64,000 nt of DNA, from assembly GCA_023664775.1 (NCBI GenBank), contig JAMPEW010000010.1:1-64000 (forward strand). Direction: 5' to 3'. Under the pieces are notes generated by a model, which ran no database searches, had not been told where the DNA came from, and was given only the letters and a program-made list of their open reading frames with translations. Source of the stretch: Clostridium sp. (GTDB lineage Bacteria > Bacillota > Clostridia > Lachnospirales > Lachnospiraceae). How positions within the stretch are numbered: position 1 is the first letter of the stretch; each line of letters opens with the position of its first letter. Position numbers and translations under genes: made by a program. This document shows, piece after piece, positions 6,148-55,131 of the stretch.

Positions 6148-6188
6148 AATCCTCTCTCTTTCGTACTAGTTTACATAATTCGTTTTTC

Positions 6189-7103: not shown

Positions 7104-7114
7104 ATACGTCTCCT

Positions 7115-8491
7115 TTATTCATAATCATCAGCCTCTAGCCGCTTGAGCTTTATCATATACGATACTCCGATTGGAAGCGTCAGTAAAAATGTAAGCAGGT
7201 CAGCGGCAGGCTGTGCAATCTGTATTCCAAATAAACCAAACAAATTACTAAATAACAAAAGCAGCGGTATGAAACAGGCTCCGCTTCTTAAAAGCGACAC
7301 AAATGCCGCCTTTTTGTTTTCTCCCACGCTCTGAAAAAGCATGGAGGTACAAATGGAAAACGGCTGGACAAAAAGGGCTAAAAGCTGGTATCTTAAAGCA
7401 ACCGTGCCAATTTCTATAACGCTCTTGTCATCCCTGAAAATGCCTACAAGATTTCCCGATAATATAATTCCAATTATGGCAAGAATGCCAAGCAGAACCT
7501 CTCCTGCCGCCCAAGTAAAATAAAATGCCTTTCTTACCCTTTCAAACCTTTTTGCGCCATAATTAAATGCGGCAACAGGCTGAAAGCCTTGTCCGATTCC
7601 AAGTCCAACCGCAAATATGAAGAAGCATATCCTATTTACAATCGACATGGCAGCCACAGCCTCATCGCCGTAATTTCCTGCCATACTGTTCAAAATCATC
7701 GTAGATACGCTTGTAAGCCCCTGTCTTAAAAAGCTCGGAAATCCGGTTTGCATAACAAGAATAACCATGCCTACATTTGCACATGCAGTTGTAAGGCTGA
7801 TTTTACTCTGTGTTTTTCCCCGAAGAAACATGCTCAGCAATATTAGAAAGCTGACGCACTGTGAAAGTGCCGTTGATATTCCTGCGCCTGCAATTCCAAG
7901 GTCAAAAATGAAGATACAGACAGGGTCAAGGGCAATGTTTATAATTCCTCCAATCGTAAGACCGATCATTGAGAGGTATGCTTTTCCTTCGTATCTTAAA
8001 ATATTATTTAGTACAAAGCTGCCCATAGATACGGGGGCTGCCATGAGTATAAACCTTCCGTAATCCTTCGCATACGGCAGTATGGTTTCCGTGCTTCCAA
8101 GAAGCTTCATCAACGGCGTTATAAAAATAAGACCGAATGCGGTCACGCAGACGCCTGCCAAAAGCGAGGCAAAAAAGCTTACGGATGTATATTTTGTTGC
8201 ATTTTCAGGATCCCGCTCGCCAAGACGTCTTGCAACGATGCTTCCTGCCCCATGCCCAAACATAAAGCCAACAGCCTGATTAATTGCCATAAGTCCAAAA
8301 ACAACACCTACTGCTCCGCTGGCGCTGTTTCCAAGCTTTCCCACAAAATAAGTATCTGCCATACTGTAAATCGTTGTAACCATCATGCTTATAATGGTGG
8401 GAATAGCAAGCCTTGTGACAAGCCTTGCCACAGGAGTATTTACCATTTTTTCGTAGTTTGCGGTGCCCGCCGCATCCTGATGTGTACCCAT
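7115..8491 (-). CDS. MATE-family multidrug efflux transporter
   Basis: A 458-residue membrane protein with twelve predicted helices and the MATE signature at the N-terminus ([26 protein letters not shown] in shifted form: [17 protein letters not shown], then [18 protein letters not shown]). It is expected to extrude cationic compounds using a Na+ or H+ gradient. [16 protein letters not shown], conserved in the second half, is present. The start has GGGGAT upstream. It probably forms an operon with nfo downstream. No regulator is adjacent. Confidence 0.92.
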
Positions 8492-8545
8492 TTTATTTAT
8501 CCCCTGTTCCTATCATAACTGCCTCCATACAGATAAAATAATCAG

Positions 8546-8848
8546 CTATATTTCATAATCAATACAGCTTCTTGCCACAGTATAAGGTCTTACAAAGGTG
8601 TCAGCCACCTTAACATGCTCCGGATGCTCCTGGTAACCCTTTAATGCATTTTCATCCTCAAATGTGCTGTCCATCATAACATCTACATTTGATGAGGAAA
8701 GCGGGTTGATATTTATTTTCATGCTTACAAGTCCGGGTATTTTCCCACACAACCCTTCTAAATTTTTCTTTATGCCTATTCGCACTTCTTCCTTTTTGGC
8801 GCCCTCAAGCGTTTCATTTAATTTCCATAAAATAATGTGCTTTACCAT
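8546..8848 (-). CDS. Dabb-family (stress-responsive A/B barrel) small protein
   Basis: A 100-residue protein with the Dabb dimeric alpha-beta-barrel fold: it begins MVKHIILWKL and has SMKININPLSSSNVDVMMDSTFEDENALKGY, then HPEHVKVADTFVRPY. The usual active-site-like His near the N-terminus (VKHIILW) and HPEHV are present. Family members are small cytoplasmic proteins; most bacterial ones have no assigned reaction. The length is complete and AGCAGGTG precedes the ATG. It may be transcribed with the MATE gene downstream. Confidence 0.85.
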   Translation of the reverse strand: MVKHIILWKLNETLEGAKKEEVRIGIKKNLEGLCGKIPGLVSMKININPLSSSNVDVMMDSTFEDENALKGYQEHPEHVKVADTFVRPYTVARSCIDYEI

Positions 8849-8930
8849 ATTTACACCTGCTTTCCTTCATAATAATCATTGACACCCATAATTTCCACTT
8901 TTTGTAAAAGCATGCCCACAGAAATGATAC

Positions 8931-9356
8931 TTATTCCTCCATAACCGGTGTAATTCCGTGATTGGAAAAAAGTGCCTTTAACTCGTCCCAGCTTTGTGTT
9001 CCTGCATAATTGTCATCCATCACGTACTTTGTATGTGCAGCGTCATTTTCGTTGATAATCTGTTCAATATCAGTAAGCGTTACTTCCTTATCGTCAATGA
9101 AATACTGTCCCTGCTTTACCTCGATTGTAATTGTCTTTTCATCCTCCGTTGCATCGGCCTCGGTGTTTTTTTCTGTTCCCTTATCGCCTGAATTAAAAAA
9201 GCCAAAGCCTCCCCCTTTACCAAAGAATAACAGTGCGGCAATAATAAGCACCAAAAGCAAGAAAAGCAGCCAAGGAAATTTTCGTTTCTTTTTCTTCTTT
9301 TCCTTTTTTGTTTGTTCGTTTTCATTCATTTCGTTATAATTGTCCTTTTTACCCAT
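8931..9356 (-). CDS. ExbD/TolR periplasmic-domain-like membrane protein
   Basis: A 141-residue protein. A very basic cytoplasmic head (KKEKKKKKRK) precedes one transmembrane helix (about residues 28-46) and a glycine-rich linker. Residues about 78-141 (ITIEVKQGQYFIDDKEVTLTDIEQII, then WDELKALFSNHGITPVM) resemble the extracytoplasmic domain of ExbD/TolR. The membrane helix lacks the protonatable Asp of ExbD, which the upstream protein has instead. The start at 9356 was chosen for AGGAAA at proper distance; an upstream Met at 9392 has no such site. It is the last gene of the motor-like locus. Confidence 0.6.
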   Translation of the reverse strand: MGKKDNYNEMNENEQTKKEKKKKKRKFPWLLFLLLVLIIAALLFFGKGGGFGFFNSGDKGTEKNTEADATEDEKTITIEVKQGQYFIDDKEVTLTDIEQIINENDAAHTKYVMDDNYAGTQSWDELKALFSNHGITPVMEE

Positions 9357-9400
9357 AGTTTTTTCCTTTCTGTTTTTTATTATGTCAGGCAATTGCCTTT

Positions 9401-10060
9401 CTATTTCTTCATTTCCTCAATGTAACAGGTAATATTTTTGTCTGCCTCAATCATATCAACGGCATCACATATAATTTCCAAATCTGCATTGGAAAAATTC
9501 TCATCCCGATAGTCATATTCTATTAACACCCATATCAGCTTTGTATCAGTGTATGTGAGATATTTTTCAAGCTCCGCTTTCATGCTTCCTATCTGCTTTG
9601 CATTAAATGCATCCCGTTCCTTCCTCGATAAATCAAAGTCATGGATGATTTTCGCAGTCGTCTGTCTTGCGGTTTCATTCTTATGTTTTATCACAATATC
9701 AATGGACACCATATGCTTATTTGTTTCCGTATCCATACCCGTTTCGCATTTCATAATGACCTTTGTCGTGCTGTCAAGCATCGCTTTATAGGCTTCAGAA
9801 GGAACAGGGTCGCCATCGTTAATCTGATACTCGCTAAGCTCCATCTTTAAGGCTTCGTTGTCAGCGGACAGTGCATCAAGCTTGCCCTGCATGTCCTCCA
9901 TCTTTATCTCGGCATCTGCAAGGCTTTCCTGTGATTTTTTTGCATTTTCATTTGCCTCCAGGGATGCATTGCTCATATTACATATGACAACGAAAAGCAA
10001 AATCATTATGACATCCAAAAGGGAGGTAAAATCCAATATTAAATTTTTCTTTTTTCTCAT
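9401..10060 (-). CDS. ExbD/MotB-like ion-channel subunit with coiled coil
   Basis: A 219-residue protein. Residues 9-28 (LDFTSLLDVIMILLFVVICN) match the ExbD/TolR/MotB transmembrane helix, including a single Asp at residue 16 in the position of the proton-carrying Asp. A coiled coil follows (about 31-77) and then an extracytoplasmic alpha/beta domain of unknown type ending CYIEEMKK. It starts behind GGAGA. With the ExbB-like gene upstream it would form an ion-driven stator; the second membrane protein downstream appears to supply the ExbD-like outer domain. The substrate or coupled machinery is unknown. Confidence 0.6.
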   Translation of the reverse strand: MRKKKNLILDFTSLLDVIMILLFVVICNMSNASLEANENAKKSQESLADAEIKMEDMQGKLDALSADNEALKMELSEYQINDGDPVPSEAYKAMLDSTTKVIMKCETGMDTETNKHMVSIDIVIKHKNETARQTTAKIIHDFDLSRKERDAFNAKQIGSMKAELEKYLTYTDTKLIWVLIEYDYRDENFSNADLEIICDAVDMIEADKNITCYIEEMKK

Positions 10061-41914: not shown

Positions 41915-43183
41915 CTAATCAATCATATTTAAAGCCACATAATAAACTGCATTCATGTTAATTTCTTCATTTTGGTTATCCCATCTCAAACGATAATTTC
42001 TCTGCACTCCATCATTTCCAATCATAACAAACCTTCCTTTACAGTTTCTTATAACGCCGGCTTCTGATGTCCTTATTTCGTACAAGCTTAAATCTAATAT
42101 TGGAATACTTATGTCTACGCATATATCAAATTGTAAAAACCCAATTTCCATTCCAAAGTTTTTTGGAATAAAATTAATGATTTCCTGTTTGTGCTCATTC
42201 CGATTTGTCCTCTCATTCCTATGAAACCTGAAATCCCATGCACCATCCATTGTTTCACTTAACCCCATATCATTAAATGCCCTGCCTGCTGGAACAATCG
42301 GCTCTATATTCCACTGCCAACGGCTTATTTCATTGTTTTTATGTGCGTCATCACTAATAGAAAACTCCGTTCCATTTGCACAATCCATAAGCTTTAATGT
42401 AGAATCATGTCTGTTTCCAATGTCTGTTGCAGTATAAAAATAAAATTTATCAATTACATCATTACTAATATTACGAATGGTGCTTAAGTGCCATTCTCTT
42501 TTACCATCATAAACAAATTCATCATTTTTTTCATTTTTAGTAATTGAATATAAAATATCTAGTCTCTCTATTCTGACAGGGTTACTGCACTGCTCCATAT
42601 CCATAAGCATCAGCATTTTAGGCAATACATTAAACCTGTTAAACCCTTCCCTTCTGTCATTGTTAAAGAAAAGGTATTGCATCAATTCATATTTATGCTT
42701 GAAAATCTCATTTGTAATTCCATCCAGTCTCTCACATTCATTTTCATAGTCTGTCAATATTCTTGTCAAATCTGCTCCTAAGGTCACTTCATTATCAATC
42801 GCAGGAATAAGCTGATTGCCCCTTACCAAATTAATAAAAGACTCTAATCTTTCAGGATTATCACATGGTTCATCATCATTTCCCTTCAGTATTATTTTAA
42901 TCATTTTTTTATTTCTCTCGCAGGCATATTCATACTCCATTTGTGTATAACTTTTTCCTGTTTCTTTACAAATCGTACCATACTGATTTCCTATTAATAT
43001 GAGAAACACATCGCACGCATCTATAAATTCTTTTATTACGGGCATCTGCCCTCTGTCGTCCTGTTCAAAAAACTCCATTCCAAGTGGAATATGCCCTATA
43101 TGCAAAATTGTATGTATTATATTCATTCGCACCTCCCGTAAGTCTTTATACGTTGACGAAATAAATACCTGTAATTTACTCAT
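41915..43183 (-). CDS. DUF4062 (TIR/SEFIR-like N-terminus) protein with unknown C-terminal domain
   Basis: A 422-residue, apparently cytoplasmic protein. The N-terminal ~110 residues are a DUF4062 domain: LQVFISSTYKDLREVRMNII, LGMEFFEQDDRG, CDVFLILIGNQYGTI and SYTQMEYEYA. DUF4062 is flavodoxin-like, distantly related to TIR domains, and often found in NLR-like or antiphage proteins. The C-terminal ~230 residues are a beta-rich domain I do not recognise (WHLSTIRNISNDVIDKFYFYTATD). It is 45 bases after the LRR-dockerin gene, an odd place for a cytosolic protein. A defence or signalling role is only an inference. Confidence 0.7.
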   Translation of the reverse strand: MSKLQVFISSTYKDLREVRMNIIHTILHIGHIPLGMEFFEQDDRGQMPVIKEFIDACDVFLILIGNQYGTICKETGKSYTQMEYEYACERNKKMIKIILKGNDDEPCDNPERLESFINLVRGNQLIPAIDNEVTLGADLTRILTDYENECERLDGITNEIFKHKYELMQYLFFNNDRREGFNRFNVLPKMLMLMDMEQCSNPVRIERLDILYSITKNEKNDEFVYDGKREWHLSTIRNISNDVIDKFYFYTATDIGNRHDSTLKLMDCANGTEFSISDDAHKNNEISRWQWNIEPIVPAGRAFNDMGLSETMDGAWDFRFHRNERTNRNEHKQEIINFIPKNFGMEIGFLQFDICVDISIPILDLSLYEIRTSEAGVIRNCKGRFVMIGNDGVQRNYRLRWDNQNEEINMNAVYYVALNMID

Positions 43184-43228: not shown

Positions 43229-43420
43229 CTACCAAAATCTATCTACATAGTTAATATGGTTCCGTATTGCATTTAAGTCCTGTGAATTTATCCTGCCATC
43301 GCCTGTCACATCTGCACACCTGAATTTATACTCGTCAGCAATTTGTGCTGCATAGTTAATATGGTTACGGACGGCATTTAAATCCTGTGAGTTTACTTTT
43401 CCATCACCTGTCACGTCACC
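43229..43420 (-). repeat. Dockerin-coding repeat, copy 1
   Basis: A 192-bp unit encoding the last 63 residues and stop. It is about 95 percent alike by eye to the units at 45785-45976 and 47500-47691, with the first ~100 bases nearly unchanged. Confidence 0.85.
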
Positions 43421-45775
43421 CTTCAGACAAATGGTTACATCCTGCCTGCAATTTGTATCTGATAAATCCACATTATAATAACGTGTGACATGGCTTTTCT
43501 TGGCAATCTCCATAACATAACTTCCTTCCATAACATCAGGTATATTATAGCTGTCATTTTCTGTCGTTGTCTGATACAGAGGTTCATCGCCTTCAATATA
43601 ATCTAAACTATACAGCTTAATGGTTATGGTTTCATTTGAAATGTCCGACGCCTCATACGACTTAACTGTACCATACAAGCCTTCACCCCATCCTGCAATA
43701 TCATCATATGCCAATGCATAAAGTGAAAACTTGCTTGTCTTAAATGTAATCGTATTCGGATTATCATCTAAATCAGGAAGCTCCTCTGCAACGCCATTAT
43801 GTAATCTGATTATTGTAAATCTTCTATGACTCGAACGGTATGCCAAAGGAACATCAACTGTCATTGTTATCTCATTATCTAACTTTGTTATATTTCCCAC
43901 TACTTCGGAATCTATTTTTTTTACAATATTTATATCAAGCATCACTGCAATCTGCTTTTCCTTTGCAACATTCTTTATAGGCTCAAAATCCTCTTTATCA
44001 AGTTCTGTTTCATCCGCAACAGAAATTATGAAATCCACCTTCAAAGGAAGTCCACTATTCATTTCTTCTTCAGTAAACGATGAATTTACAAGCTCATCAT
44101 ATGCACCATTATCCATAACAATATCAGGCACATTATCACCAATTTTATCAATTACAACATCTTCCCTTTGTTTACCTGGTATATCAATAAGACAGTAATA
44201 TTCTTCTAATCTATACATATAAACAGGTATAGGTCCATTTCCATTATCCTCCATATGCACTGAATAAGCTATAATACCTATCCGATCATAGTCTGTTGCT
44301 TCTTCAGGGATTATCCCTTTTACGGTAAATATCTTTGTCTCATATGGTTCAAAAGACATATTTATCACACCCTCATACTCTGATGTAACATCACCACACA
44401 AAATCGTCCCAAAAGCTTCAGGTTCTTTACCATAAAAAGTAATATTTATATCTGTCTCAGATTTCTCATATGTATATTCTGTTGTATTTGTCACCTCTAG
44501 CTGAAATACAGCTTCCTTCCCTGGTTCAAGTTTATTATCCGTCGAAAGCGCTATAGAAAAACCTTTTGTCGGCTCAGGTTGCGGAGGAGGAATTATAGGG
44601 TCTGTACTGCCGTCTGCACTTATTTCTGTCTGCCAATAGCCTGAAAGAACCAAATCCGAGGCTTCTATAGTATCTGAATGTTCATAGTTTGTATCCAAGC
44701 CCCCATAAATACCAAAAAACATTTTCTCATTCCAAATTTTCGGCAGAGTACATCTAACTGTATACACTACAGTTTGTCCTGCCTGGAGCCTTGTTTTGCC
44801 GTCAAAGCTTATGTCCGCATACCCTCCATCTGTATTTGTAATATCTTCTCCATTTTCATTTAGTATAACCTGTACGTTTCCTTCATCATATGGAACATCT
44901 ACAATCAACCCATTATCGTCATAGGTTCTGACCCCTGCCATAAGCGTACCTAGTGAAATTTCAAAATTATTATTATTTGTTATTTGAACGTCAAAGCTTG
45001 CTTCTTTTCCTGCTTCAAGTTTATCAGGTAAACTTACATCCCAAACAACGTTTTCCAATGTTCCATATCCAACATTTACCGAAATATACATTTCCATATC
45101 ATTATTTGTTGCTACCAAATAATATGGTCCCCATTTAGGCAGCTCGTATGATAGCTTCTTTTCAGTTACATCAAATCTTTCATCAGAAATTATATTATCC
45201 AACCCTTTAATTTTTGTAAGATCTAAAGTATCTTTTCTTTTATCTACAAATATTGTTAAATACAATAAATTCTGATTATTAGATAAGTCAACGTCAATAT
45301 CATCCATATATAATGTATTAAGCAGTATATTATTTGTAATATCCAGCGTTGTAAATGGATTTCCAGAACAATATAAACTAATCAGTGCTGTGTTATTACT
45401 CAAATCCAAACTGTCAAGTTGGTTACATTGACACGACAAGGAGCGCAATGCCGTATTTCTACTTACGTCCAAGCTTGTAAGATTATTGTCGCTACAATTT
45501 AAATCTTCTAAAGCAGTAAATAATTCTATTCCCTTTAAACTGCTTATTTGCTGATTGTTTACAAATATATACGTCACTTCTTCTATAGAAACAAAGCTAT
45601 CACCATCGTTGTCAAATTCTGTTTCCAAATAACACCTAAAGTTTGCATCCGGGAAATTCGCCTCACTAAGCTCAATCAATTCCTGTTCTTCTGCCTTGCT
45701 TGGCATATTGCCTAAACACATTGCAGTAAACACAAGCACAAGACAAAACATGAAACCTAATATTTTTCTTTTCAT
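43229..45775 (-). CDS. Secreted leucine-rich-repeat protein with C-terminal dockerin
   Basis: An 848-residue exported protein. A signal peptide covers about residues 1-28. An EF-hand-like FDNDGDSFVSIEEV is followed by internalin-like LRRs (LEDLNCSDNNLTSLDVSRNT, LISLYCSGNPFTTLDITNN) to about residue 200. The middle consists of Ig/DUF11-like beta domains. A carboxypeptidase-regulatory-like domain (YQTTTENDSYNIPDVMEGSYV) precedes a dockerin at 786-848 with two calcium loops, DVTGDGKVNSQD and DVTGDGRINSQD. It starts behind AGGAGG nine bases after the transglutaminase gene. It presumably attaches to a cohesin on the cell surface. Confidence 0.8.
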   Translation of the reverse strand: MKRKILGFMFCLVLVFTAMCLGNMPSKAEEQELIELSEANFPDANFRCYLETEFDNDGDSFVSIEEVTYIFVNNQQISSLKGIELFTALEDLNCSDNNLTSLDVSRNTALRSLSCQCNQLDSLDLSNNTALISLYCSGNPFTTLDITNNILLNTLYMDDIDVDLSNNQNLLYLTIFVDKRKDTLDLTKIKGLDNIISDERFDVTEKKLSYELPKWGPYYLVATNNDMEMYISVNVGYGTLENVVWDVSLPDKLEAGKEASFDVQITNNNNFEISLGTLMAGVRTYDDNGLIVDVPYDEGNVQVILNENGEDITNTDGGYADISFDGKTRLQAGQTVVYTVRCTLPKIWNEKMFFGIYGGLDTNYEHSDTIEASDLVLSGYWQTEISADGSTDPIIPPPQPEPTKGFSIALSTDNKLEPGKEAVFQLEVTNTTEYTYEKSETDINITFYGKEPEAFGTILCGDVTSEYEGVINMSFEPYETKIFTVKGIIPEEATDYDRIGIIAYSVHMEDNGNGPIPVYMYRLEEYYCLIDIPGKQREDVVIDKIGDNVPDIVMDNGAYDELVNSSFTEEEMNSGLPLKVDFIISVADETELDKEDFEPIKNVAKEKQIAVMLDINIVKKIDSEVVGNITKLDNEITMTVDVPLAYRSSHRRFTIIRLHNGVAEELPDLDDNPNTITFKTSKFSLYALAYDDIAGWGEGLYGTVKSYEASDISNETITIKLYSLDYIEGDEPLYQTTTENDSYNIPDVMEGSYVMEIAKKSHVTRYYNVDLSDTNCRQDVTICLKGDVTGDGKVNSQDLNAVRNHINYAAQIADEYKFRCADVTGDGRINSQDLNAIRNHINYVDRFW

Positions 45776-45784
45776 AATATCCTC

Positions 45785-45976
45785 CTACCAAAATCTATCT
45801 ACATAGTTAATATGGTTCCGTATTGCATTCAAGTCCTGTGAATTTATCCTGCCATCGCCTGTCACATCTGCACACCTGAATTTATATTCATCGGTAATTT
45901 GTGCTGCATAATTAATATGGTTACGAACAGCATTTAAATCCTGTGAGTTTACTTTTCCATCGCCTGTCACGTCACC
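45785..45976 (-). repeat. Dockerin-coding repeat, copy 2
   Basis: A 192-bp copy of the dockerin unit, ending in the same residues (YVDRFW) as copy 1 and differing at scattered, mostly synonymous positions. Confidence 0.85.
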
Positions 45977-47485
45977 CTTTATTTTAAAATCCGGTATTTT
46001 GTCAGTTATATTTACTGTAATACGTTCGGTTTTGTTTCTATCGGATTTAGGGTCAAATTGTATATTTAAATACGCTTTACCATCGCCATATACCTTACAA
46101 CCCGAAATACATTCTTCTGTTCTTGTATGCGTATAAACAGTTTTAACAGTGGAATCCTTTAAATTTATAGCGTAAACATTTGTACTATCGTTAAAGAAGA
46201 TATAGTCTCCCTGTATTGAAATTTCAGGCAATAAGAGCCATACAGACGATCTATTCCATTCATAATAAGCACTCCAAGCAGGTGCACTATGTTTTACAGT
46301 GGCTGTATTTCCGTTTCTCTCCATTACGTCAAAGCTTCGGTCATCATGAATCATTACATAATAGTATAAATGATTCTTTATCAAAATTTCGCTTTCAACG
46401 AAATTCCACCAATAATCTTCCGCATCATATTTTGTTGAAGTACATTTTATAGTATTGGTCCAATTGTAATGTCCTCTATTTTGCATCTCATTATCACTTA
46501 AAAGAAAATATTTATGCTGAACTATTTTTGAATCAATGCCATTGCAGTTATCATCCCACGTAACATCCACGTGATACCATTCATTATCAATTTTTATAAT
46601 ATTCCATGCATGATCCATGTCTGCTGAACCACAATACTCACACTCAATCCCCACTTCCCGAAGAAGCAGCCTATAAGCTTCCGCATACCCCATACATACA
46701 GCATAACCATTTACTATACATCCATATGCGTCATATACATGTGGTACAGTGTATAATGTTCCTGCATCATATTCAGCTTTAGCATATGTACAATTCAAAA
46801 TCAAATAATCATGTATAAACAATGCTTTTTCCAAATCCGTCATATTATTATCTATTAAAGCAACAATTTCATCAATTTTACTATTAAATAATTCTTTTTC
46901 TTCTATCGTAACCTCATTATAATAGAACCACAAACCTTGTATTTGATCACGGGTTCCTGTCATATCTATAGAATTAAAAACATAAAAAAGCCTAGGATTA
47001 TCATTTAATACTTGCTCAAACAACGCCTCAATATCCTCAGCGTACTCGTAAGAAATGTTATACGAACTCACGTCTATGTATTCTGTTTCATTCAATAGTG
47101 CTGTCAAAATTGCATTTTTCAGACGTTCTTCATTAGATATACTGTAAAATTCTACTTTCTCTGTGGCTTCAACCTCCACAGAATCGAGTGCGTCTGTCGG
47201 TATTCCCCAGCCTCCCGCACTATATACCATATCGCTTATATCCGAAACATATACTTCTTCATATATTTCCGTACAATCTTCTATACCAGCTTCTTCATGC
47301 ACATCTACATCAGTTTCTTCACTGGCATTTTCCGTCACATCATCTTGAAGCTCCTCGGTTACTTCTGTATCTTGTTCTTCTGCCGATATTATTTCTACAT
47401 CTGCTGCCTGTATATTGAAATTACTTAAAACCATACTTGCAAGCAATAATGTAACTGCCAGTACTTTACTGTAAAATCTTTTCAT
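45785..47485 (-). CDS. Secreted transglutaminase-like protein with dockerin
   Basis: A 566-residue exported protein. After the signal peptide lies an acidic linker (about residues 35-80). A transglutaminase/protease-like core follows: LEKALFIHDYLILNCTYA, Cys264 in GYAVCMGYAEAYRLLL, His292 in MDHAWNII and Asp307 in WYHVDVTWDDN, so the catalytic triad is complete. The C-terminal ~63 residues are the dockerin. It may crosslink or cleave proteins at the surface. The Met at 47485 was preferred because it lies ten bases from GGAGG and starts a good signal peptide (MKRFYSKVLAVTLLLASM). Confidence 0.85.
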   Translation of the reverse strand: MKRFYSKVLAVTLLLASMVLSNFNIQAADVEIISAEEQDTEVTEELQDDVTENASEETDVDVHEEAGIEDCTEIYEEVYVSDISDMVYSAGGWGIPTDALDSVEVEATEKVEFYSISNEERLKNAILTALLNETEYIDVSSYNISYEYAEDIEALFEQVLNDNPRLFYVFNSIDMTGTRDQIQGLWFYYNEVTIEEKELFNSKIDEIVALIDNNMTDLEKALFIHDYLILNCTYAKAEYDAGTLYTVPHVYDAYGCIVNGYAVCMGYAEAYRLLLREVGIECEYCGSADMDHAWNIIKIDNEWYHVDVTWDDNCNGIDSKIVQHKYFLLSDNEMQNRGHYNWTNTIKCTSTKYDAEDYWWNFVESEILIKNHLYYYVMIHDDRSFDVMERNGNTATVKHSAPAWSAYYEWNRSSVWLLLPEISIQGDYIFFNDSTNVYAINLKDSTVKTVYTHTRTEECISGCKVYGDGKAYLNIQFDPKSDRNKTERITVNITDKIPDFKIKGDVTGDGKVNSQDLNAVRNHINYAAQITDEYKFRCADVTGDGRINSQDLNAIRNHINYVDRFW

Positions 47486-47499
47486 AAGCATTTTCCCTC

Positions 47500-47691
47500 C
47501 TACCAAAATCTGTTTTCATAGTTAATATGGTTCCGTATTGCATTTAAGTCCTGTGAATTTATCCTGCCATCGCCTGTCACATCTGCACACCTGAATTTAT
47601 ACTCGTCCGTAATTTGTGCTGCATAGTTAATATGGTTACGGACAGTGTTTAAATCCTGTGAATTTACTTTACCGTCACCTGTCACGTCACC
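47500..47691 (-). repeat. Dockerin-coding repeat, copy 3
   Basis: A 192-bp copy of the dockerin unit. It differs from copies 1 and 2 at the extreme 3' end, where ENRFW replaces VDRFW, and at a few sites in the first calcium-loop half. Confidence 0.85.
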
Positions 47692-50600
47692 TTTGAGGCA
47701 GATGGTTACATCCTGCTCAGTGTCAGAATCTGATATAGTGATGTTGTAACAGCGTGTCACATGATTTTCCTTGGAAACTGACATAATGTAATCACCAGCT
47801 TCAACATCATCTATCTCATATGTTCCGTCTGTGCTTTCCACTTCATAAATTGCATTATTCATTGAAGTGTCATTGCTGTTGTATAATTTAATATCCACAG
47901 CATGAGATGTGTCTGACGATGCACTAAAGGATTCGACTTGCCCAAACAATATATACCCTTGCATTGGAACTACAAATGCATCCGAAGACTCATATGGTTC
48001 ACGCTGTATGTAATTAATTTCTATAGTCCCGCTTGCATCTGATGTCGCCTGTATAATAAAAAGTATATTGTCAGTGGCGTATGGTTCGGCTGCATCTTTG
48101 TCTTTCATATCATAGAAATTATATACTGTATTTGGTTTCAGTCCTGTAAAGGTTTTTGCAGTCATGTTTCCAGTGTTTTGAACCTCTATGACTTCATCAC
48201 TTTCGGCTTGTGCCTCATCATAAGATGTTGTGAGCATCGTATACGGTTTTACAGATTTTTCTATAGCATATGTATCATCTTTATTCAGTGATGAACTTGT
48301 AGTCGGTGTAATTACTGTTGCCGGGCAACCTTCAAACATACCATCAGTGGCAGCGTTAGGGTTGATATTCAAATATACTGTTTCCAGCTTCATACAACCA
48401 TAAAACATCCCCTCCATCCTTGTTACATTGCCTGTATCAAAGTTGCTTAGATCTATTGTTGTTAGGCTATTACAATCATCAAACATATGCATCATATTCG
48501 TTACTTTACTTGTATCAAAGTTGCTTACATCTATTGTTGTTAGGCTATGGCAGAAACTAAACATTTGTTCCATATTTGTTACGTTATTTGTATCAAAGTT
48601 TCTTACATCTATCGTTATTAAACTCTTACAATTACAAAACATAGCCCTCATATCTGTTACCTTGCTTGTATCAAAGTTGTTTACATCTATTGTTGTCAGG
48701 CTAAGACAATCCCAAAACATACCTCTCATATTTGTTACCTTACTTGTATCAAAACTGCTTACATCTATTGTCATTAAGCTATGACAACCCATAAACATAC
48801 TTTCCATATCTGTTACGTTACTTGTATCAAAGTTTCTTACATCTATCGTTGTTAGGCTATGACAATCCCAAAACATACCACCCATATTTGTCACCTTGCT
48901 TGTACCAAAGTTGCTTACATCTATTGTTATCAGATTTTTGCATCCATAAAACATCTCGCCCATACTTGTTACGTTGCTTGTATCAAAGTTGCTTACATCT
49001 ATTGTTATCAGATTTCCGCATCCATAAAACATACAGCTCATGCTTGTTACGTTTCTTGTATCAAATTTGTTTACATCTATTGTTGTTAGACTATGACAAT
49101 GCTCAAACATACCACTCATATTTGTTACCTTGCTTGTATCAAAGTTGCTTACATCTATTGTTATCAGATTTTCGCATCTATAAAACATACCACTCATATC
49201 TGTTACCTTGCTTGTATCAAAGTTGCTTACATCTATCGTTGTCAGGCTATGACAATCCCAAAACATACCACCCATATTTGTCACCTTGCTTGTATCAAAT
49301 TTGCTTATATTATCTATTGTTGTCAGGTTATGGCAATCCCTAAACATACCACCCATATTTGTTACCCTGCTTGTATCAAATTTGCTTACATCTATTGTTA
49401 TCAGATTTTTGCATCCATAAAACATCTCGCCCATATCTGTTACCTTGCTTGTATCAAATTTACTTACATCGATTGTTGTTAGACTATGACAAGCATCAAA
49501 CATATTACTCATATCTGCTACCTTGCTTGTGTTAAAGTTTCTTACGCCTATTGTTGTTAGGCTTTCACAATATCTAAACATACTTCCCATATTTGTTACC
49601 TTGCTTGTATCAAATTTGCTTACATCTATTGTTGTTAGACTACGACAAAAAGAAAACATATCGCCCATATCCGTTACGTTGCTCGTATCAAAGTTGCTTA
49701 CATCTATCGTTGTTAGACTATCACAATCCTCAAACATACTATTCATATTTGTTACCTTGCTTGTATCAAATTTGCTTACATCTATCGTTGTTAGACTATC
49801 ACAATCCTCAAACATACCATTCATATTTGTTACCTTGCTTGTATCAAATTTGCTTACATCTATTGTTGTTAGACTACGACAAGACGAAAACATACTTCCC
49901 ATATCTGTCACATTGCTTGTATCAAATTTGCTTACATCTATTGTTGTTAGACTATGACAATGCCTAAACATGTCCCTGCAATTCGATATATCCGACACAA
50001 CAATTTTGGCTGTTTTAATTCTGTCTGTGTAAAAAAGCCATGTCCAATCAGCATTTGCATAATCTCCCTTCCCCCATATCTCAAGCAAACCGTCCTCATC
50101 TATAGACCACCATAAATCGCCATCTTTTCTCGGTTCAACAATAAAGTTCTTATTCTTATCCGGCCAATATATTTCAGTTTCTTCAGGATTTTCCGTTTCT
50201 CCCCCTGTTTCTCCTTCGCCTGCATCACTTGTTTTTATCATAAAGAGACTTAAACTTTTAGAATTATTTTTTACACGAATTGAATTTTTAGCTGTGCAAT
50301 CTTTATATCCTTCTTTAACCGGCACAATTTTATTTTTATACTCGCCATTTGGCACAAAAAAACTCACCTTTCCCTTTTCATTAGTAATGCAGTCATCATC
50401 ATAAACTAAAACCCCTTCTATTGGTTTTTTTGTTGAAGCATCCTTCACCTCTACTGAAACCTTGTATTTAATATGTGGACATGTGTCAAATCCAAATTCA
50501 TTAAAATCTGACGAATAATACATGTCAGTTATTTTACACTTATATTTAATTGCTTTTATTTCAAATTTTACTTTTGCAATTTTGGCACTAACAGATAAAT

Positions 50601-52185
50601 TAAATTTAGAGTCTATTTCCCCCTCAAAACATCCTTTACAATCATGTATTGAAACCGTCATATCATTTTTAGACTTGTCACAAGATTTCATTGATAATTC
50701 AACGCCTGCTTCTGCTTTCATGGAAGCATTTGCGATATAATCTGACAAAATTTTCACTTTAGGCTCCATAGATATTCCAATATACACTTTTCCTTCTAAT
50801 TTCAACTCTGTTTTAAATTTAGGATTTTTCGATATATTTTCAATTCCATTTCCTTTTATACGAAATCCTATGCTTCCTGATAAATTAGCATTTACTTTTA
50901 CGCTTACATCTGCATCTATTACAAGCGATGGCTTAAATGTTATATACACACCTGCAACAGGGCTAGTCGAAAACTCAGGAAACATCTTTATTTGATTATT
51001 ATATCCTGCATTTATGGTTACATCCTTAAATCCAACTACATACTCTAACTCAGCGTCAAAATATTTTTTATTTCTGCTCCATTTAAACTCCAATTTAATC
51101 GTTGCTGCAAAATTTAATTTACCCTTTATAGATGCATCAAACCCTCCTTTATCTTTATTTCCCAATTCAAATTCAAATCCCAAAGTTTTTTTCCCACTTA
51201 TACTTGCATACGTCTGTTGTTCGTTTTCTTCTAATCCTTCAGCAAGTCCTAAATATTCAATGTCCTCATCCATATAGGAGGTATCCACTTTGGCATCTTC
51301 AGCATCAGAAATTGTATCAACGCTGATATACTCAAACACATCTTCTTTTTCAATATCAGTACCTGTTATTCTAACATTGTTTCCGTCTACATTTATTGTA
51401 TCAACCTTAATAAGAACAACCTCATTATCAAGATATTCATATGATAGGACGTCACCTGAGGCAAGATTTATTATGCTCTCATCTGCATCAGCAAATTCAT
51501 ATACTCCATTTTCATCATCCTGCAATACAATTGTGTTTACTCCCTGTGTTTCCTCAACAATAATTGTTGAATCATTATAAACGGCAAAATTAGTTGTATT
51601 ATCATCGTCAAAATTCAAAATTTTATCCTGCTCAAAATCATCTACTGTCTTATTCACAAACTCCTGCATATCCTGTGTATATAAATCAGACTCATATTGT
51701 GTGGACAACGGCTTCATTGTTTCTGTTTCAACAAGATATGCCCGCAGGAAAAAATAATCAGGAATATCATCAAAATCAATATATGTCTGCGTTTCATCTG
51801 CAAAAACCTCTATTGACCCTGATGTCAGCATCTGTACACCCGTTTCATCATATATTGCTACAATTGCCGTACAATCAATATCTGCCGTAAACTCAACAGA
51901 CATCGTATATGTATCTACAACCTTTACATCAATAATGCGATTTGCTTCCGCTGCTTTTTCACTTGCAACGGCAATTTCTTCGTCAATTGTTTCTGCTAAT
52001 ATCCCTCCTAATACAGTATCAGAAGATGTTTCAATATTCCCCAAAGAAAATCCACTTTCAAAACCATCAGCATAATTACTTAACGCCCCTGATACAGCTT
52101 CAACTGTTTCTGCTGATATTGACATAGCATATGTATTTACCAAAACGATTACTGACATTACAATTGACAAAATCCTTCTCCTCAT
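47500..52185 (-). CDS. Giant BspA-like (DUF285) surface protein with dockerin
   Basis: A 1561-residue exported protein. A signal peptide (about 1-25) leads into a large N-terminal region with beta domains; residues about 590-660 look like a Cna-B/carboxypeptidase-regulatory Ig fold (TKKPIEGVLVYDDDCITNEKG). Residues 745-1265 consist of 20 DUF285 repeats of 26 residues (SLTTIDVSKFDTSKVTNM). A short linker, a second regulatory-like domain (YEVESTDGTYEIDDVEAGDYIM) and the dockerin end the protein. BspA-type repeats bind host or bacterial surfaces. The start follows AAGGAGGAG, and the stop is 15 bases from the next start. Confidence 0.88.
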   Translation of the reverse strand: MRRRILSIVMSVIVLVNTYAMSISAETVEAVSGALSNYADGFESGFSLGNIETSSDTVLGGILAETIDEEIAVASEKAAEANRIIDVKVVDTYTMSVEFTADIDCTAIVAIYDETGVQMLTSGSIEVFADETQTYIDFDDIPDYFFLRAYLVETETMKPLSTQYESDLYTQDMQEFVNKTVDDFEQDKILNFDDDNTTNFAVYNDSTIIVEETQGVNTIVLQDDENGVYEFADADESIINLASGDVLSYEYLDNEVVLIKVDTINVDGNNVRITGTDIEKEDVFEYISVDTISDAEDAKVDTSYMDEDIEYLGLAEGLEENEQQTYASISGKKTLGFEFELGNKDKGGFDASIKGKLNFAATIKLEFKWSRNKKYFDAELEYVVGFKDVTINAGYNNQIKMFPEFSTSPVAGVYITFKPSLVIDADVSVKVNANLSGSIGFRIKGNGIENISKNPKFKTELKLEGKVYIGISMEPKVKILSDYIANASMKAEAGVELSMKSCDKSKNDMTVSIHDCKGCFEGEIDSKFNLSVSAKIAKVKFEIKAIKYKCKITDMYYSSDFNEFGFDTCPHIKYKVSVEVKDASTKKPIEGVLVYDDDCITNEKGKVSFFVPNGEYKNKIVPVKEGYKDCTAKNSIRVKNNSKSLSLFMIKTSDAGEGETGGETENPEETEIYWPDKNKNFIVEPRKDGDLWWSIDEDGLLEIWGKGDYANADWTWLFYTDRIKTAKIVVSDISNCRDMFRHCHSLTTIDVSKFDTSNVTDMGSMFSSCRSLTTIDVSKFDTSKVTNMNGMFEDCDSLTTIDVSKFDTSKVTNMNSMFEDCDSLTTIDVSNFDTSNVTDMGDMFSFCRSLTTIDVSKFDTSKVTNMGSMFRYCESLTTIGVRNFNTSKVADMSNMFDACHSLTTIDVSKFDTSKVTDMGEMFYGCKNLITIDVSKFDTSRVTNMGGMFRDCHNLTTIDNISKFDTSKVTNMGGMFWDCHSLTTIDVSNFDTSKVTDMSGMFYRCENLITIDVSNFDTSKVTNMSGMFEHCHSLTTIDVNKFDTRNVTSMSCMFYGCGNLITIDVSNFDTSNVTSMGEMFYGCKNLITIDVSNFGTSKVTNMGGMFWDCHSLTTIDVRNFDTSNVTDMESMFMGCHSLMTIDVSSFDTSKVTNMRGMFWDCLSLTTIDVNNFDTSKVTDMRAMFCNCKSLITIDVRNFDTNNVTNMEQMFSFCHSLTTIDVSNFDTSKVTNMMHMFDDCNSLTTIDLSNFDTGNVTRMEGMFYGCMKLETVYLNINPNAATDGMFEGCPATVITPTTSSSLNKDDTYAIEKSVKPYTMLTTSYDEAQAESDEVIEVQNTGNMTAKTFTGLKPNTVYNFYDMKDKDAAEPYATDNILFIIQATSDASGTIEINYIQREPYESSDAFVVPMQGYILFGQVESFSASSDTSHAVDIKLYNSNDTSMNNAIYEVESTDGTYEIDDVEAGDYIMSVSKENHVTRCYNITISDSDTEQDVTICLKGDVTGDGKVNSQDLNTVRNHINYAAQITDEYKFRCADVTGDGRINSQDLNAIRNHINYENRFW
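48391..49953 (-). repeat. Array of 20 DUF285-coding 78-bp repeats
   Basis: Twenty tandem 78-bp units run without interruption, each coding 26 residues with the pattern LTTIDVSxFDTSxVTxMxxMFxxC. The length is 1563 bp, which is 20 x 78 plus one extra codon in unit nine (TTIDNISKF). Neighbouring units share long identical stretches, so slippage and recombination are expected. Opposite-strand frames in this array are artefacts of the repeats. Confidence 0.92.
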
Positions 52186-52215
52186 AATTCTCCTCCTTGA
52201 AATTACTTCACCCTG

Positions 52216-52689
52216 CTACTCTTTAGTAACATCCTTCCTCGTTAGCTCATACACGCCTCCCGCAGTGCCTTCCTCTCCAGTTAATGTAAGCTTGTCCCCG
52301 CTTATCGAAAATGTGTACACCGCATCATGCAGCTCCTCCGAGTTAAAATCTATATATAATCGGTCATTCTCAACCGTATATTGATAACCGTACTTAAATT
52401 CCTCTTCATCTATTAATAAATGCAGGCAGCCAAATTTTTCTCCGTCAAAATCATATATTGTATCTTCCTCATAAAAATAGCTGCCGTTCAATTTACTGTT
52501 TGGACTTTCTGCATTTGCCGTATCATTTTGCACAGCCTCCAAACCACCATTCCCATTTCCCGCCTTGTTAAGCCTCAAACTCTGTATTATTAACACAAGC
52601 ATTAAAACGATACATACGGCTGATATACTGATTAATACTTTCAAAAACAATATTTTATTTTTCTTCCTTTTTAATTCCGTCTTATTCAT
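52216..52689 (-). CDS. Single-pass membrane protein with DUF5640-like domain
   Basis: A 157-residue protein with a basic head, one helix (about 15-36) and a small extracytoplasmic beta domain: LNGSYFYEEDTIYDFDGEKFGCL through TFSISGDKLTLTGEEGTAGGVYELTR, the pattern of short lipocalin-like DUF5640 domains. The start at 52689 is chosen from the membrane topology; its ribosome binding site is weak. It lies between the cohesin-like gene and the BspA-like gene, 30 bases before the latter. Confidence 0.6.
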   Translation of the reverse strand: MNKTELKRKKNKILFLKVLISISAVCIVLMLVLIIQSLRLNKAGNGNGGLEAVQNDTANAESPNSKLNGSYFYEEDTIYDFDGEKFGCLHLLIDEEEFKYGYQYTVENDRLYIDFNSEELHDAVYTFSISGDKLTLTGEEGTAGGVYELTRKDVTKE

Positions 52690-52730
52690 ATATGTTGCTA
52701 AAATCCTTTGTATTCCCTTAAACAATATAA

Positions 52731-52751
52731 GGGCGATGTATGTCACCGCCC
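52731..52751 (-). terminator. Weak hairpin after the cohesin-like gene
   Basis: On the minus strand GGGCGGTG pairs with CATCGCCC (8 bp with one G-U) around a 5-base loop, followed by TTATATTGTT. It may only partly terminate, allowing read-through to the dockerin genes. Confidence 0.5.
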
Positions 52752-52765
52752 TTTGTAATTACAGG

Positions 52766-55021
52766 CTATTCTTTTAACCTATTTTCCTCTTTTTTGATAA
52801 ATCTTGTCATAATCACCAGCAAAATGCCCGACAAGATAACCAATAAAATCATCACGCTTATGTTTACGTTATCGCCCGTTTTCGGACTCTCCGAAATCGT
52901 TTTATCTGTAGTTGTCTCAGGCTTTACAATCTCAGGCTGTGGTGCCTCCTTATACCAGCTTACGGAAATCGGAGAAAGACCATTTACCTCAAATGTAATG
53001 CCTGTCGCAGTTTTTGTTATTTCAGGTATTTCCATACTACCCGGTGTTTGTCCATTAACAGAGGTTGCAAACATATGTACAACCTTAAAGTCGTATGTTG
53101 CGTCTGTTCCTTCAGGATATGGAATTGTTACTGCTATTTTACCTCCCACAGGGTAATTGTCCTTTGTTGCTTCAACAAAGGTTTTTCCGTTGTCAAATGA
53201 TACCATCAGCTTTGCATCATATACCATGCTGTTTTCTTTTTTATAATTGTCAGTAAGCGCTATGGCATATAAAGCTTCCTCGATTTTAGCCACGGTATCA
53301 ATACCTGCTTTTTTCAATTCGTCTGTAATATCAGCCTCGCTTATGGCTGCAATTTTAACCTCTGCCTCTGCCTTAAAGCTTTCTCCGTCAGCAATTTTTT
53401 CGCCACAGGCTTTGCAATATGTATCTCCTGTATAGCCCGCCTCATTTGCTGTTGCGTCCTTCTGATTTTTTATCTCCACCTCTCCAACATGATTTTCAGG
53501 ATTAACATCTGTAACTATATTGATTATTTCCAACTGACACGCTTCATCACTATAATATTTTCCGTCACATTTGCTGCTTCCACAGGTATAAAATTCCACT
53601 GTTCCTGTTTCCGTACAGCTTGCCGCAACCGCAGCGTGCTTTACGATATCCACATGAACATGGTCCAGCTTGTCAATTACTGTATTTTCATTGCGTGTAT
53701 ATCCACAAGCTGTACATTCCTCATGCTTTAAGCCTGTTTCATCTTCGGTAGCCGCCTTGTCAACAACCCACTTATATGTATGGGCTGTTTTTGTGCTTTC
53801 AATCAATACGCCGCAGCCTACGGTCGTGCAGTTCTTCCAGTGATTAGTTTCATCTGTCTGCCAATCACCGGGAACATGTGGTATCATGTCAATAACAAGC
53901 TCCTGCTCTGTTACCTCATTCTTAGCCGAGTCAAATAATTTATTACAAACTGAACATATATAATGTGCTTCCATTCCCTCAACAAGATGTGTTGATGGTG
54001 TCTTTTCTATCAGACTTCCATATGTGTGGGCTGCATATTCGCCATACTCGTTATCACATACGCTGCAAGTTGCAAGCTTGTTACACGTTGCTGCCGTACC
54101 CTGTGTATGCTCAGCAAGGGATAAATACGGAATTTCCGTTATTTCATCATTGCTTCCGTCAAAAAGCTGTCCACAAGCATCACATTTGGAATATGCCGTC
54201 CAACCCTTTTTCGTACAGCTTGAAGGCTCTGCTGCTACATTTGTTTTGTTTGTATGTGGACAATTAACGGTAACAGCACATGCTGCAGTTTTAGTGCCTG
54301 CTGTTGCCGTTATATTGGCAGTACCCTTTTTCTTAGCTGTTACCTCGCCTGTCGCAGCGTCAACATCTGCAACAGCACTGTTACTCGTAGACCATACAAC
54401 TGTATCTGTTGCATTGGCAGGTGTAAGTGTTGCCGTCAAGGTTTCCGTATCGCCTGCATTCAGCGTCACGCTGTTTTTATTAAGCGTTATTCCAGTAGCA
54501 GGAATTACTACGCTCACCGTTGCAGTTTTAAAGTCACATATACAAATATCAGGATTATACGGATCATCACCTGTATAGCAGTTTTCATCACTATCAGGTT
54601 CAAATCCAATGGTCAAATTACCAGTTGCCGTTTCATCAACGGTACACTGTATCGTAAATATATTCATTGACTCCGCACTTGTATAAAGATTAAATGGATT
54701 TGCCAAAAAAATCATTGATGATTCAGTAAAACTTCTAGCATCACATTCCAATATGTTATATGCATGATCCAATATCTTGTTAGACCCTGAAACATAGGTC
54801 AAACCCTCTGGTATACTTACCCTAATCCATACAGCCGCCAAATCCGTAACCGGACCCATCGACACTGTCACTGTAACAGTATCACCCGGCTTAACAGTCT
54901 GTTTATCTACTGTTGCAGTAATTGTCAATGTCTGCACTGCTGCTCTCGAAGGAATAACATCGATGCAAAGCGAGAACAACAAAACAACCATCAAAGCCAA
55001 GGATATAATTCGCGTTTTCAT
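52766..55021 (-). CDS. Wall-anchored surface protein with N-terminal cohesin-like domain
   Basis: A 751-residue exported protein. After the signal peptide, residues about 30-175 have a cohesin-like pattern: VKPGDTVTVTVSMGPVTDLAAV, then IPEGLTYVSG, a FLANPFNLYTS turn and NIFTIQCTVDETATGNLTI. A Big_2 Ig domain follows (about 178-255, VTLNAGDTETLTATLTPANAT). Then come several Cys-x-x-Cys repeats (CSVCDNEYG, CSVCNKLFD, CTACGYTR). The C-terminus has SPKTGDN, a hydrophobic helix and a basic tail, fitting a sortase-type anchor. It is the natural candidate receptor for the three dockerin proteins. The start is ATG at 55021 behind GAGAGGAG. Confidence 0.65.
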   Translation of the reverse strand: MKTRIISLALMVVLLFSLCIDVIPSRAAVQTLTITATVDKQTVKPGDTVTVTVSMGPVTDLAAVWIRVSIPEGLTYVSGSNKILDHAYNILECDARSFTESSMIFLANPFNLYTSAESMNIFTIQCTVDETATGNLTIGFEPDSDENCYTGDDPYNPDICICDFKTATVSVVIPATGITLNKNSVTLNAGDTETLTATLTPANATDTVVWSTSNSAVADVDAATGEVTAKKKGTANITATAGTKTAACAVTVNCPHTNKTNVAAEPSSCTKKGWTAYSKCDACGQLFDGSNDEITEIPYLSLAEHTQGTAATCNKLATCSVCDNEYGEYAAHTYGSLIEKTPSTHLVEGMEAHYICSVCNKLFDSAKNEVTEQELVIDMIPHVPGDWQTDETNHWKNCTTVGCGVLIESTKTAHTYKWVVDKAATEDETGLKHEECTACGYTRNENTVIDKLDHVHVDIVKHAAVAASCTETGTVEFYTCGSSKCDGKYYSDEACQLEIINIVTDVNPENHVGEVEIKNQKDATANEAGYTGDTYCKACGEKIADGESFKAEAEVKIAAISEADITDELKKAGIDTVAKIEEALYAIALTDNYKKENSMVYDAKLMVSFDNGKTFVEATKDNYPVGGKIAVTIPYPEGTDATYDFKVVHMFATSVNGQTPGSMEIPEITKTATGITFEVNGLSPISVSWYKEAPQPEIVKPETTTDKTISESPKTGDNVNISVMILLVILSGILLVIMTRFIKKEENRLKE

Positions 55022-55131
55022 AATCAAGCTCCTCTCTATTAAATCAATATGATATGTTAAAATTCTTTGTTATGCAGAAAACATAAACCTCCTTCCTCGC
55101 TATTTCACTACTAAATTTTATTTCGCTACAA

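Follow-up and report, generated by a model that had tools for sequence, protein, structure and literature searches.

A candidate single-cohesin display locus with locus-specific dockerins in a Clostridium sp. genome of the Lachnospiraceae

Introduction

In Ruminococcus flavefaciens, the cohesin of ScaE binds CttA through a C-terminal X module-dockerin (PMC5301203). A comparable arrangement is described here for a run of five minus-strand genes of a Clostridium sp. (Lachnospiraceae; GenBank assembly GCA_023664775.1), located in a 64,000-nucleotide stretch of contig JAMPEW010000010.1 (hereafter, the window), which encodes a protein with a putative cohesin and a sorting signal (the anchor), a small membrane protein, and three secreted proteins ending in dockerins (the cargoes). 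The likeness to ScaE and CttA consists of a single cohesin on an LPXTG-type wall anchor and of a partner that is an adhesion protein, and it extends to the dockerins, as several R. flavefaciens group-4 dockerins are internally symmetric, with two binding modes (PMC5301203). Conversely, ScaE belongs to a large cellulosome, whereas neither a multi-cohesin scaffoldin nor a dockerin-bearing glycoside hydrolase was found in the window genome; further, the window cohesin lies within the gene run of its cargoes, and the recognition code differs by locus.

A second likeness is provided by the group-4b cluster ORF01263-01267 of R. flavefaciens FD-1, in which transglutaminase-like and leucine-rich-repeat (LRR) genes are arranged head-to-tail, their products displaying similar C-terminal dockerins, a conserved sequence preceding these, and variable N-termini; the authors suggested a possible role of some group-4 interactions in organizing the cell surface (PMC2930009). 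Most dockerins of R. flavefaciens LRR proteins bound none of the tested cohesins (PMC5301203), and no cohesin partner for ORF01263-01267 is mentioned in the available portion of its description (PMC2930009). In the window, by contrast, the cohesin is encoded adjacently.

Non-cellulosomal cohesins and dockerins were reportedly described by Peer et al. in 2009 from organisms without cellulase systems, as scattered modules, unlike the paired gene run with a locus-specific code presented here. The mucinolysome of Limousia is likewise a cohesin-dockerin complex of a gut bacterium with a target other than cellulose; however, it is a multi-enzyme complex for mucin degradation (PMC12997984), whereas the window cargoes are adhesin-like, LRR and transglutaminase-like proteins. 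A literature search combining BspA, dockerin and leucine-rich repeat retrieved nothing, and searches on cohesin-dockerin together with adhesin and sortase, Lachnospiraceae, single cohesin, or peptidoglycan hydrolase retrieved no such loci among the matches listed in the portions of text available, an earlier description in the 2009 work being possible. In a close relative, socket (cohesin), plug (dockerin) and cargo all differ at this position, and this suggests a modular surface-display locus rather than the usual cellulose-digesting complex.

Results

The five genes are arranged head-to-tail with intergenic gaps of 19, 30, -7 and 9 bases, and constitute an apparent operon at 43229-55027 (Table 1). 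An earlier interpretation made from the nucleotide letters and their translations (hereafter, the sequence-only reading) had located four of these genes, all on the minus strand, at positions that our analysis reproduces, and lacked the fifth, the DUF5640 gene at 52216-52746; we also note that the cohesin gene has an alternative TTG start at 55027, 2 codons upstream of the ATG at 55021. With a probability of about 0.8, we consider that the locus encodes a compact non-cellulosomal display system, in which a ScaE-like single-cohesin anchor is predicted to bind exchangeable surface proteins.

The three adjacent secreted proteins with near-identical dockerins that the sequence-only reading had recognized were confirmed, as Dockerin_1 (PF00404), with its two calcium-loop repeats, was matched at all three cargo C-termini far above the curated cut-off of 22.9 bits (47.9-49.3 bits in per-protein Pfam searches, 54.2-54.9 in the genome search). 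Within the window dockerin, 19 of 22 residues are the same in both repeats, including all five recognition positions (defined below). Among themselves, the three copies display 91-94% DNA identity, with 0.25-0.47 synonymous (dS) and 0.016-0.026 nonsynonymous (dN) substitutions per site; thus, silent sites have drifted under a conserved protein sequence. A search of the PDB with one of these dockerins matched 37 sequences, with both cellulosomal dockerins (1ohz, E 4.1e-7) and calmodulins among them. Genome-wide, four Dockerin_1 matches exceeded the cut-off, and five further matches at E<=10 all fell below it. No glycoside-hydrolase catalytic domain was detected by Pfam in the four dockerin proteins of the genome or in the four proteins for which the sequence-only reading had claimed this absence, and a PKTG-type motif near the C-terminus is absent from all three cargoes. 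The LRR assignment of cargo 3 stands on the NCBI internalin J model (residues 40-192, E 9.7e-17) and is weaker by Pfam, all LRR models being sub-cut-off (LRR_4, 23.0 versus 27 bits). As for cargo 2, transglutaminase-like folds are frequently peptidases.

The N-terminal domain of the 52766-55027 product, previously called cohesin-like from its pattern, scored 22.7 bits against PF00963 in the genome search (E 1.7e-4), 23.5 as a domain alone and 18.5 within the whole protein, the curated cut-off being 24.1; hence, of the two Pfam families named for checking the sequence-only reading, Dockerin_1 is well over its cut-off and Cohesin is under it. No other PF00963 match was found in the window genome even at E<=10, a search that overlooks the divergent cohesin of contig 7 described below and that could overlook others. 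When a profile of the window-type domain was built with five relatives, the 10 PDB sequences matched at E<=10 were all cohesins (best, 3l8q, 1.8e-6), these matches spanning about the first 40 positions only. A full-length profile-profile comparison by hhalign against 30 reference cohesins, all over the PF00963 cut-off and one of them (L091) mis-cut, gave 95.2% over 128 columns; a Big_2 decoy gave 0.25% against the same references and 0.4-1.1% against the window-type profile. Furthermore, the Cohesin model matches five of the six members of the profile set. We assign this domain as a putative divergent cohesin, an assignment made from sequence and supported by profile, linkage and co-variation evidence.

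The C-terminus of the anchor (residues 714-753) comprises SPKTGDN, a hydrophobic stretch and a charged tail, in accordance with the sortase-like anchor of the sequence-only reading, and the 753-residue protein thus has a ScaE-type architecture of one cohesin plus a sortase signal. The sole Sortase-family match in the genome is of class B (NCBI model, 150.1 bits versus a cut-off of 153.75), and SPKTG peptides are substrates of Clostridium difficile SrtB (PMC4155245). A scan of viral contigs with the cohesin returned no relative, and a full-length scan of genome contigs returned one true relative, L013, a Clostridium sp. metagenome-assembled genome; a further contig, L014, shares only the C-terminal module of residues 544-693. 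In the latter, an Angelakisella sp. surface protein at 5566-9519, this module is 40% identical, and a transglutaminase-like stretch was noted by eye.

Strong homologues of the cohesin domain (E <1e-19) were found in eight genomes, including that of the window (the others being G159, G318, G299, G637, G618, G700 and G696). The domain is rare, as 4 of 37 genomes of the genus matched at E<=0.01, one of them weakly, and 12 of 397 genomes of the family matched at E<=0.001, five of them strongly. In seven of the eight genomes the cohesin gene has a dockerin gene as its neighbour, either directly or with the DUF5640 gene in between (window and L013), and dockerin genes flank the cohesin gene on both sides in G159, G637 and G700. 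The profile that detected two of these genomes, G700 and G696, had been made beforehand and contained neither; they confirm the linkage prediction. The locus holds 3 of the 4 dockerins of the window genome, 1 of 2 in G318, 2 of 6 in G159, 2 of 2 in G637 and 1 of 1 in G618, as well as 2 of 3 in G700 and 1 of 1 in G696 at E<=1e-5. Weak matches (E 1e-6 to 1e-2) from the searches at genus, order and family level were excluded from the homologue count; none of the seven weak-match loci fetched (L052, L053, L054, L128, L129, L130 and L131) contains a window-type pair, a dockerin being found near the match in L128 and L130 and in none of the other five.

Regarding the cargoes of the homologous loci, the domains over the Pfam cut-offs were transglutaminase-like (G159), LRR_5 (G637, G618, G696 and L013), Big_2 (G618 and L013), Big_3 (G696), CUB (G618), and SLH and Flg_new (L013), with no glycoside-hydrolase catalytic domain among them by Pfam. 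Sub-cut-off matches include a rhamnogalacturonan-lyase beta-sheet domain and a pectate-lyase-like adhesive domain, and one cargo each in G159, G637 and G700 has little besides its dockerin.

For the dockerin code, we compared positions 10, 11, 17, 18 and 22 of the repeat (the recognition positions), which we take to determine specificity. Over 6 within-locus pairs of cargoes, identity at these positions was 0.95, as opposed to 0.14 over 60 pairs from different loci, and none of 5000 shuffles of the locus labels among proteins reached the observed value; between the two repeats of one protein it averaged 0.86 over seven loci (range 0.40-1.00). The corresponding identities within locus, between repeats and between loci were 0.94, 0.90 and 0.76 at the calcium positions, and 0.81, 0.66 and 0.47 at the remaining ones. 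The positions with the greatest variation between loci are nearly as alike between repeats as the calcium positions, which is expected if one cohesin faces both repeats. The residues at positions 10, 11, 17 and 18 are among those named in PMC4081043. A C-terminal tryptophan is present in all 12 locus dockerins, in none of 10 other dockerins (a set from which one G159 dockerin and the internal ones of L110-L112 were omitted), and in none of 19 dockerins from 20 further loci; 21 of these 29 non-locus dockerins are C-terminal, including 11 of the 19, the other eight being internal, where a C-terminal tryptophan is not expected. The 20 loci are a non-random sample, hand-picked from the matches listed with reading frames of at least 1000 residues; the L167 dockerin was not detected by the profile, and L091 was excluded from the profile. 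From these patterns, the dockerin code appears to be locus-specific.

The comparison with L013, which involves one close pair, indicates that the code differs together with the cohesin. The near flanks are 93-95% identical in DNA and the anchor protein is 88.5% identical overall; nonetheless, identity along the anchor falls from 96% at residues 30-57 (dS 0.10) to 46% at residues 58-103 (dS 1.06), with 57% over residues 58-165 (dN 0.32, dS 0.70), and returns to 94% from residue 166 to the end (dS 0.24). The dockerin is 73% identical, also with raised dS (0.64, and 0.6-0.9 in a separate calculation), and carries in both repeats changes at positions 10 (S to A), 13 (L to W), 18 (N to D) and 21 (N to S); the L013 cargo is a different LRR_5/Big_2 protein. 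As a control, the cohesin domain of the other pair (described below) is 99.2% identical between the same two genomes, and its dockerin 98.4%. The high dS suggests that recombination introduced the divergent sequence, as opposed to rapid selection acting in situ. Taken together, cohesin segment, dockerin code and cargo differ jointly inside conserved flanks, for which recombination would most simply account. Downstream of the intact dockerin, at 18600-18714 of L013, there is a degenerate dockerin remnant with the W13/D18/S21 state and S10, a sign of cargo turnover.

A second pair is encoded on contig 7 of the window genome (L006 5060-8959), where a 625-residue secreted SH3/cadherin-like/dockerin protein stands beside a 666-residue protein with a cohesin, a cadherin-like region and a membrane helix, the latter a hydrophobic stretch seen by eye. 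The former resembles a cell-wall hydrolase and is possibly one, with no Pfam match. The PF00963 search of the genome at E<=10 fails to detect this cohesin; a profile of eight homologues reaches 97.2% against the reference cohesins by hhalign and 9% or 67%, depending on direction, against the window-type profile, and a single-sequence PDB search had as its best match a ScaB cohesin at a weak E of 0.08, mixed with antibody chains. It is conceivable that the window dockerins serve the contig-7 protein and that the N-terminal domain of the anchor is an unrelated Ig-like adhesin domain. We regard this as very unlikely, though slightly less so than the other alternatives. In its favour, the contig-7 protein has a cohesin by profile, and in all eight same-genus genomes fetched (including L106-L112, and selected from 37 for having dockerins) its homologue is present with an adjoining dockerin gene. 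This same neighbour, however, supplies the contig-7 cohesin with its own dockerin, whose two repeats both read, by eye, A-L-Q-R-G at the recognition positions where the window dockerins have S-Q-R-N-Y; as the code differs at all five positions, the contig-7 cohesin probably does not explain the window dockerins. Further, in G637 and G618 PF00404 matches occur only beside the window-type cohesin. The sequence-only reading had named another scaffoldin that explains the dockerins as evidence against itself, and such evidence exists in part, since there is a second cohesin protein, though one with a partner and code of its own.

Beyond the genus, PF00404 was matched in 129 of 397 genomes of the family at E<=1e-5. 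Of the 19 dockerin frames in the 20 loci selected for protein length, 10 are accompanied in the fetched stretch by a different type of cohesin, which lies within the dockerin protein or next to it, and none by a window-type cohesin; thus, stand-alone cohesin-dockerin pairs look common in the family, and the window-type pair is one subclass of them. In L161, L165, L166, L169 and L176, other cohesin genes directly adjoin large dockerin proteins, and the cargoes of the last four carry CHAP, GDSL lipase, peptidase M23 and subtilase domains; by their domain content, these loci would point to a wider class of cohesin-tethered surface enzymes.

The features of the locus are presented in Table 1. L013 has a frame homologous to the DUF5640 gene at the same position. 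Directly after the cargo 3 gene, a DUF4062 protein is encoded at 41915-43183, for which only a stretch matching the 3' end was found in L013; in addition, a 193-residue frame at 40142-40723 matches both ends of a 388-residue L013 frame with the middle missing, as though the window copy had undergone an internal deletion.

Table 1. Positions in the window of the genes and domains of the candidate display locus.
Feature	Position	Strand	Basis
Single-cohesin, sortase-type anchored protein (predicted), 753 amino acids	52766..55027	-	Alternative ATG start at 55021
Divergent cohesin domain (predicted), residues ~30-175	54503..54940	-	PF00963 22.7-23.5 bits, PDB matches, hhalign
Cohesin part diverging sharply from L013, residues ~58-165	54533..54856	-	Amino-acid identity 0.57, dS 0.70 (residues 166-end: 0.94, 0.24)
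Big_2 Ig-like spacer domain	54275..54499	-	PF02368 58.7 bits
SPKTGDN sorting motif, hydrophobic helix and charged tail	52769..52888	-	Residues 714-753
DUF5640 small membrane protein, second gene of the run	52216..52746	-	PF18692 57.8 bits
Cargo 1, secreted PARCEL/DUF285 (BspA-like) protein, 1561 amino acids	47500..52185	-	DUF285/PARCEL repeats, far above cut-offs
Cargo 1 carboxypeptidase-regulatory-like (X-type) module preceding the dockerin	47695..47904, borders approximate	-	PF13620 24.5 bits, residues 1451-1494, cut-off 32.3
Cargo 1 dockerin, C-terminal Trp	47503..47694	-	PF00404
Cargo 2, secreted transglutaminase-like protein, 573 amino acids	45785..47506	-	PF01841 (Transglut_core) 42.6 bits, cut-off 23
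Cargo 2 transglutaminase-like core, Cys271/His299/Asp314	46565..46852	-	PF01841; usual triad present by eye
Cargo 2 dockerin, C-terminal Trp	45788..45979	-	PF00404
Cargo 3, secreted leucine-rich-repeat protein, 848 amino acids	43229..45775	-	Internalin J model; Pfam LRR models sub-cut-off
Cargo 3 module preceding the dockerin, resembling the cargo 1 module	43424..43633, borders approximate	-	PF09430 15.6 bits, sub-cut-off; shared sequence by eye
Cargo 3 dockerin, C-terminal Trp	43232..43423	-	PF00404

Discussion

In the mechanism that we propose, the operon would make an anchor that starts with the cohesin, continues with a Big_2 spacer and carries the SPKTG sorting signal, and that the class B sortase would attach to the wall, and the three secreted cargoes would dock on it through their near-identical, internally symmetric, calcium-binding and tryptophan-ending dockerins. 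With one cohesin per anchor, the cargoes would compete as alternatives for a single docking site. Each locus has its own combination of cohesin recognition segment, dockerin code and cargo, which differs between close relatives and which recombination may exchange. The output would be a changeable surface coat, with adhesion and local protein modification or proteolysis as the likely activities, judging from cargo type. The sequence-only reading had proposed a surface cohesin-dockerin system without glycoside hydrolases, and to that extent it is retained; the assembled complex that it envisaged finds no support, since the anchor has one cohesin and its anatomy fits one cargo at a time, as in display.

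Several observations weigh against this interpretation. The cohesin domain fails the curated PF00963 cut-off, DUF11, another beta-sandwich family, matches four of the six members of the profile set, and an NCBI DUF11-type model reaches 20.4 bits in the anchor protein (cut-off, 24). The recognition positions were transferred from other dockerins; the non-recognition positions also exceed all label shuffles and the calcium positions all but 9, so that the contrast between position classes is the point, and in G618 the repeat-to-repeat identity at the recognition positions is only 0.40. Duplication may have caused the likeness within loci, and the repeat-to-repeat comparison speaks against it as the sole cause. 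In L013, just two of the five recognition positions (10 and 18) changed, in addition to 13 and 21, and residues 301-400 of the anchor constitute a second mosaic stretch (dS 0.99 and 0.42), so exchange was not limited to the cohesin. An SLH domain (25.4 bits, cut-off 20.8) was detected in the readable front part of the L013 cargo, and this cargo could therefore be anchored without a cohesin; the gene contains unread letters, and the SLH domain is likely part of the same protein as the dockerin. Finally, G299 has a strong homologue without a neighbouring dockerin, its sole dockerin being of the contig-7 type, in a genome that is 75% complete.

Apart from the contig-7 alternative, the locus could be a peripheral part of an ordinary cellulosome or amylosome with its enzymes elsewhere in the genome, much as, in R. 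flavefaciens FD-1, cellulosomal enzymes coexist with dockerin proteins of transglutaminase-like and LRR type (PMC2930009). This appears very improbable, since the genome is 95.9% complete and none of its four dockerins over the cut-off has a Pfam glycoside-hydrolase catalytic match, missing contigs being possible, and the two cohesin proteins found in it have one cohesin each. No multi-cohesin scaffoldin was found, the window protein having one cohesin and the genome no further PF00963 match at E<=10 in a search that can overlook divergent cohesins, and the PF00404 and PF00963 searches of the genome revealed no cellulosome parts for the anchor to tie to the cell. Equally improbable is that the dockerins help three adhesins to fold or to self-associate in a calcium-dependent manner beside a coincidental cohesin. 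The three near-identical, internally symmetric tandem copies would allow this, but the linkage in seven of eight genomes speaks against it, as does the fact that the window and L013 differ in both cohesin segment and dockerin.

The display interpretation may be extended to a more general proposal, for which we see even odds: each lineage would carry a display island with a private code, formed by one anchored cohesin and large cargoes sharing that code, in which segment, code and cargo would be replaced together by recombination, changing the coat but keeping the anchor; many orphan dockerins of such bacteria would then have a divergent, Pfam-missed cohesin adjacent.

By Pfam cut-offs, the window genome shows four dockerins and zero cohesins; each of these four dockerin genes shares a gene run with a divergent cohesin gene, and because such a gene accompanies each, the role of such dockerins becomes testable. 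The predicted role of dockerins in genomes of this kind is to tether proteins of the cell surface instead of cellulases. Moreover, the differences in code between loci offer a natural series of putatively orthogonal cohesin-dockerin pairs, together with alleles differing at few positions, which would be useful for the study of joint partner change. If cargo exchange does take place, it would constitute a route to surface variation in bacteria that probably inhabit the gut.

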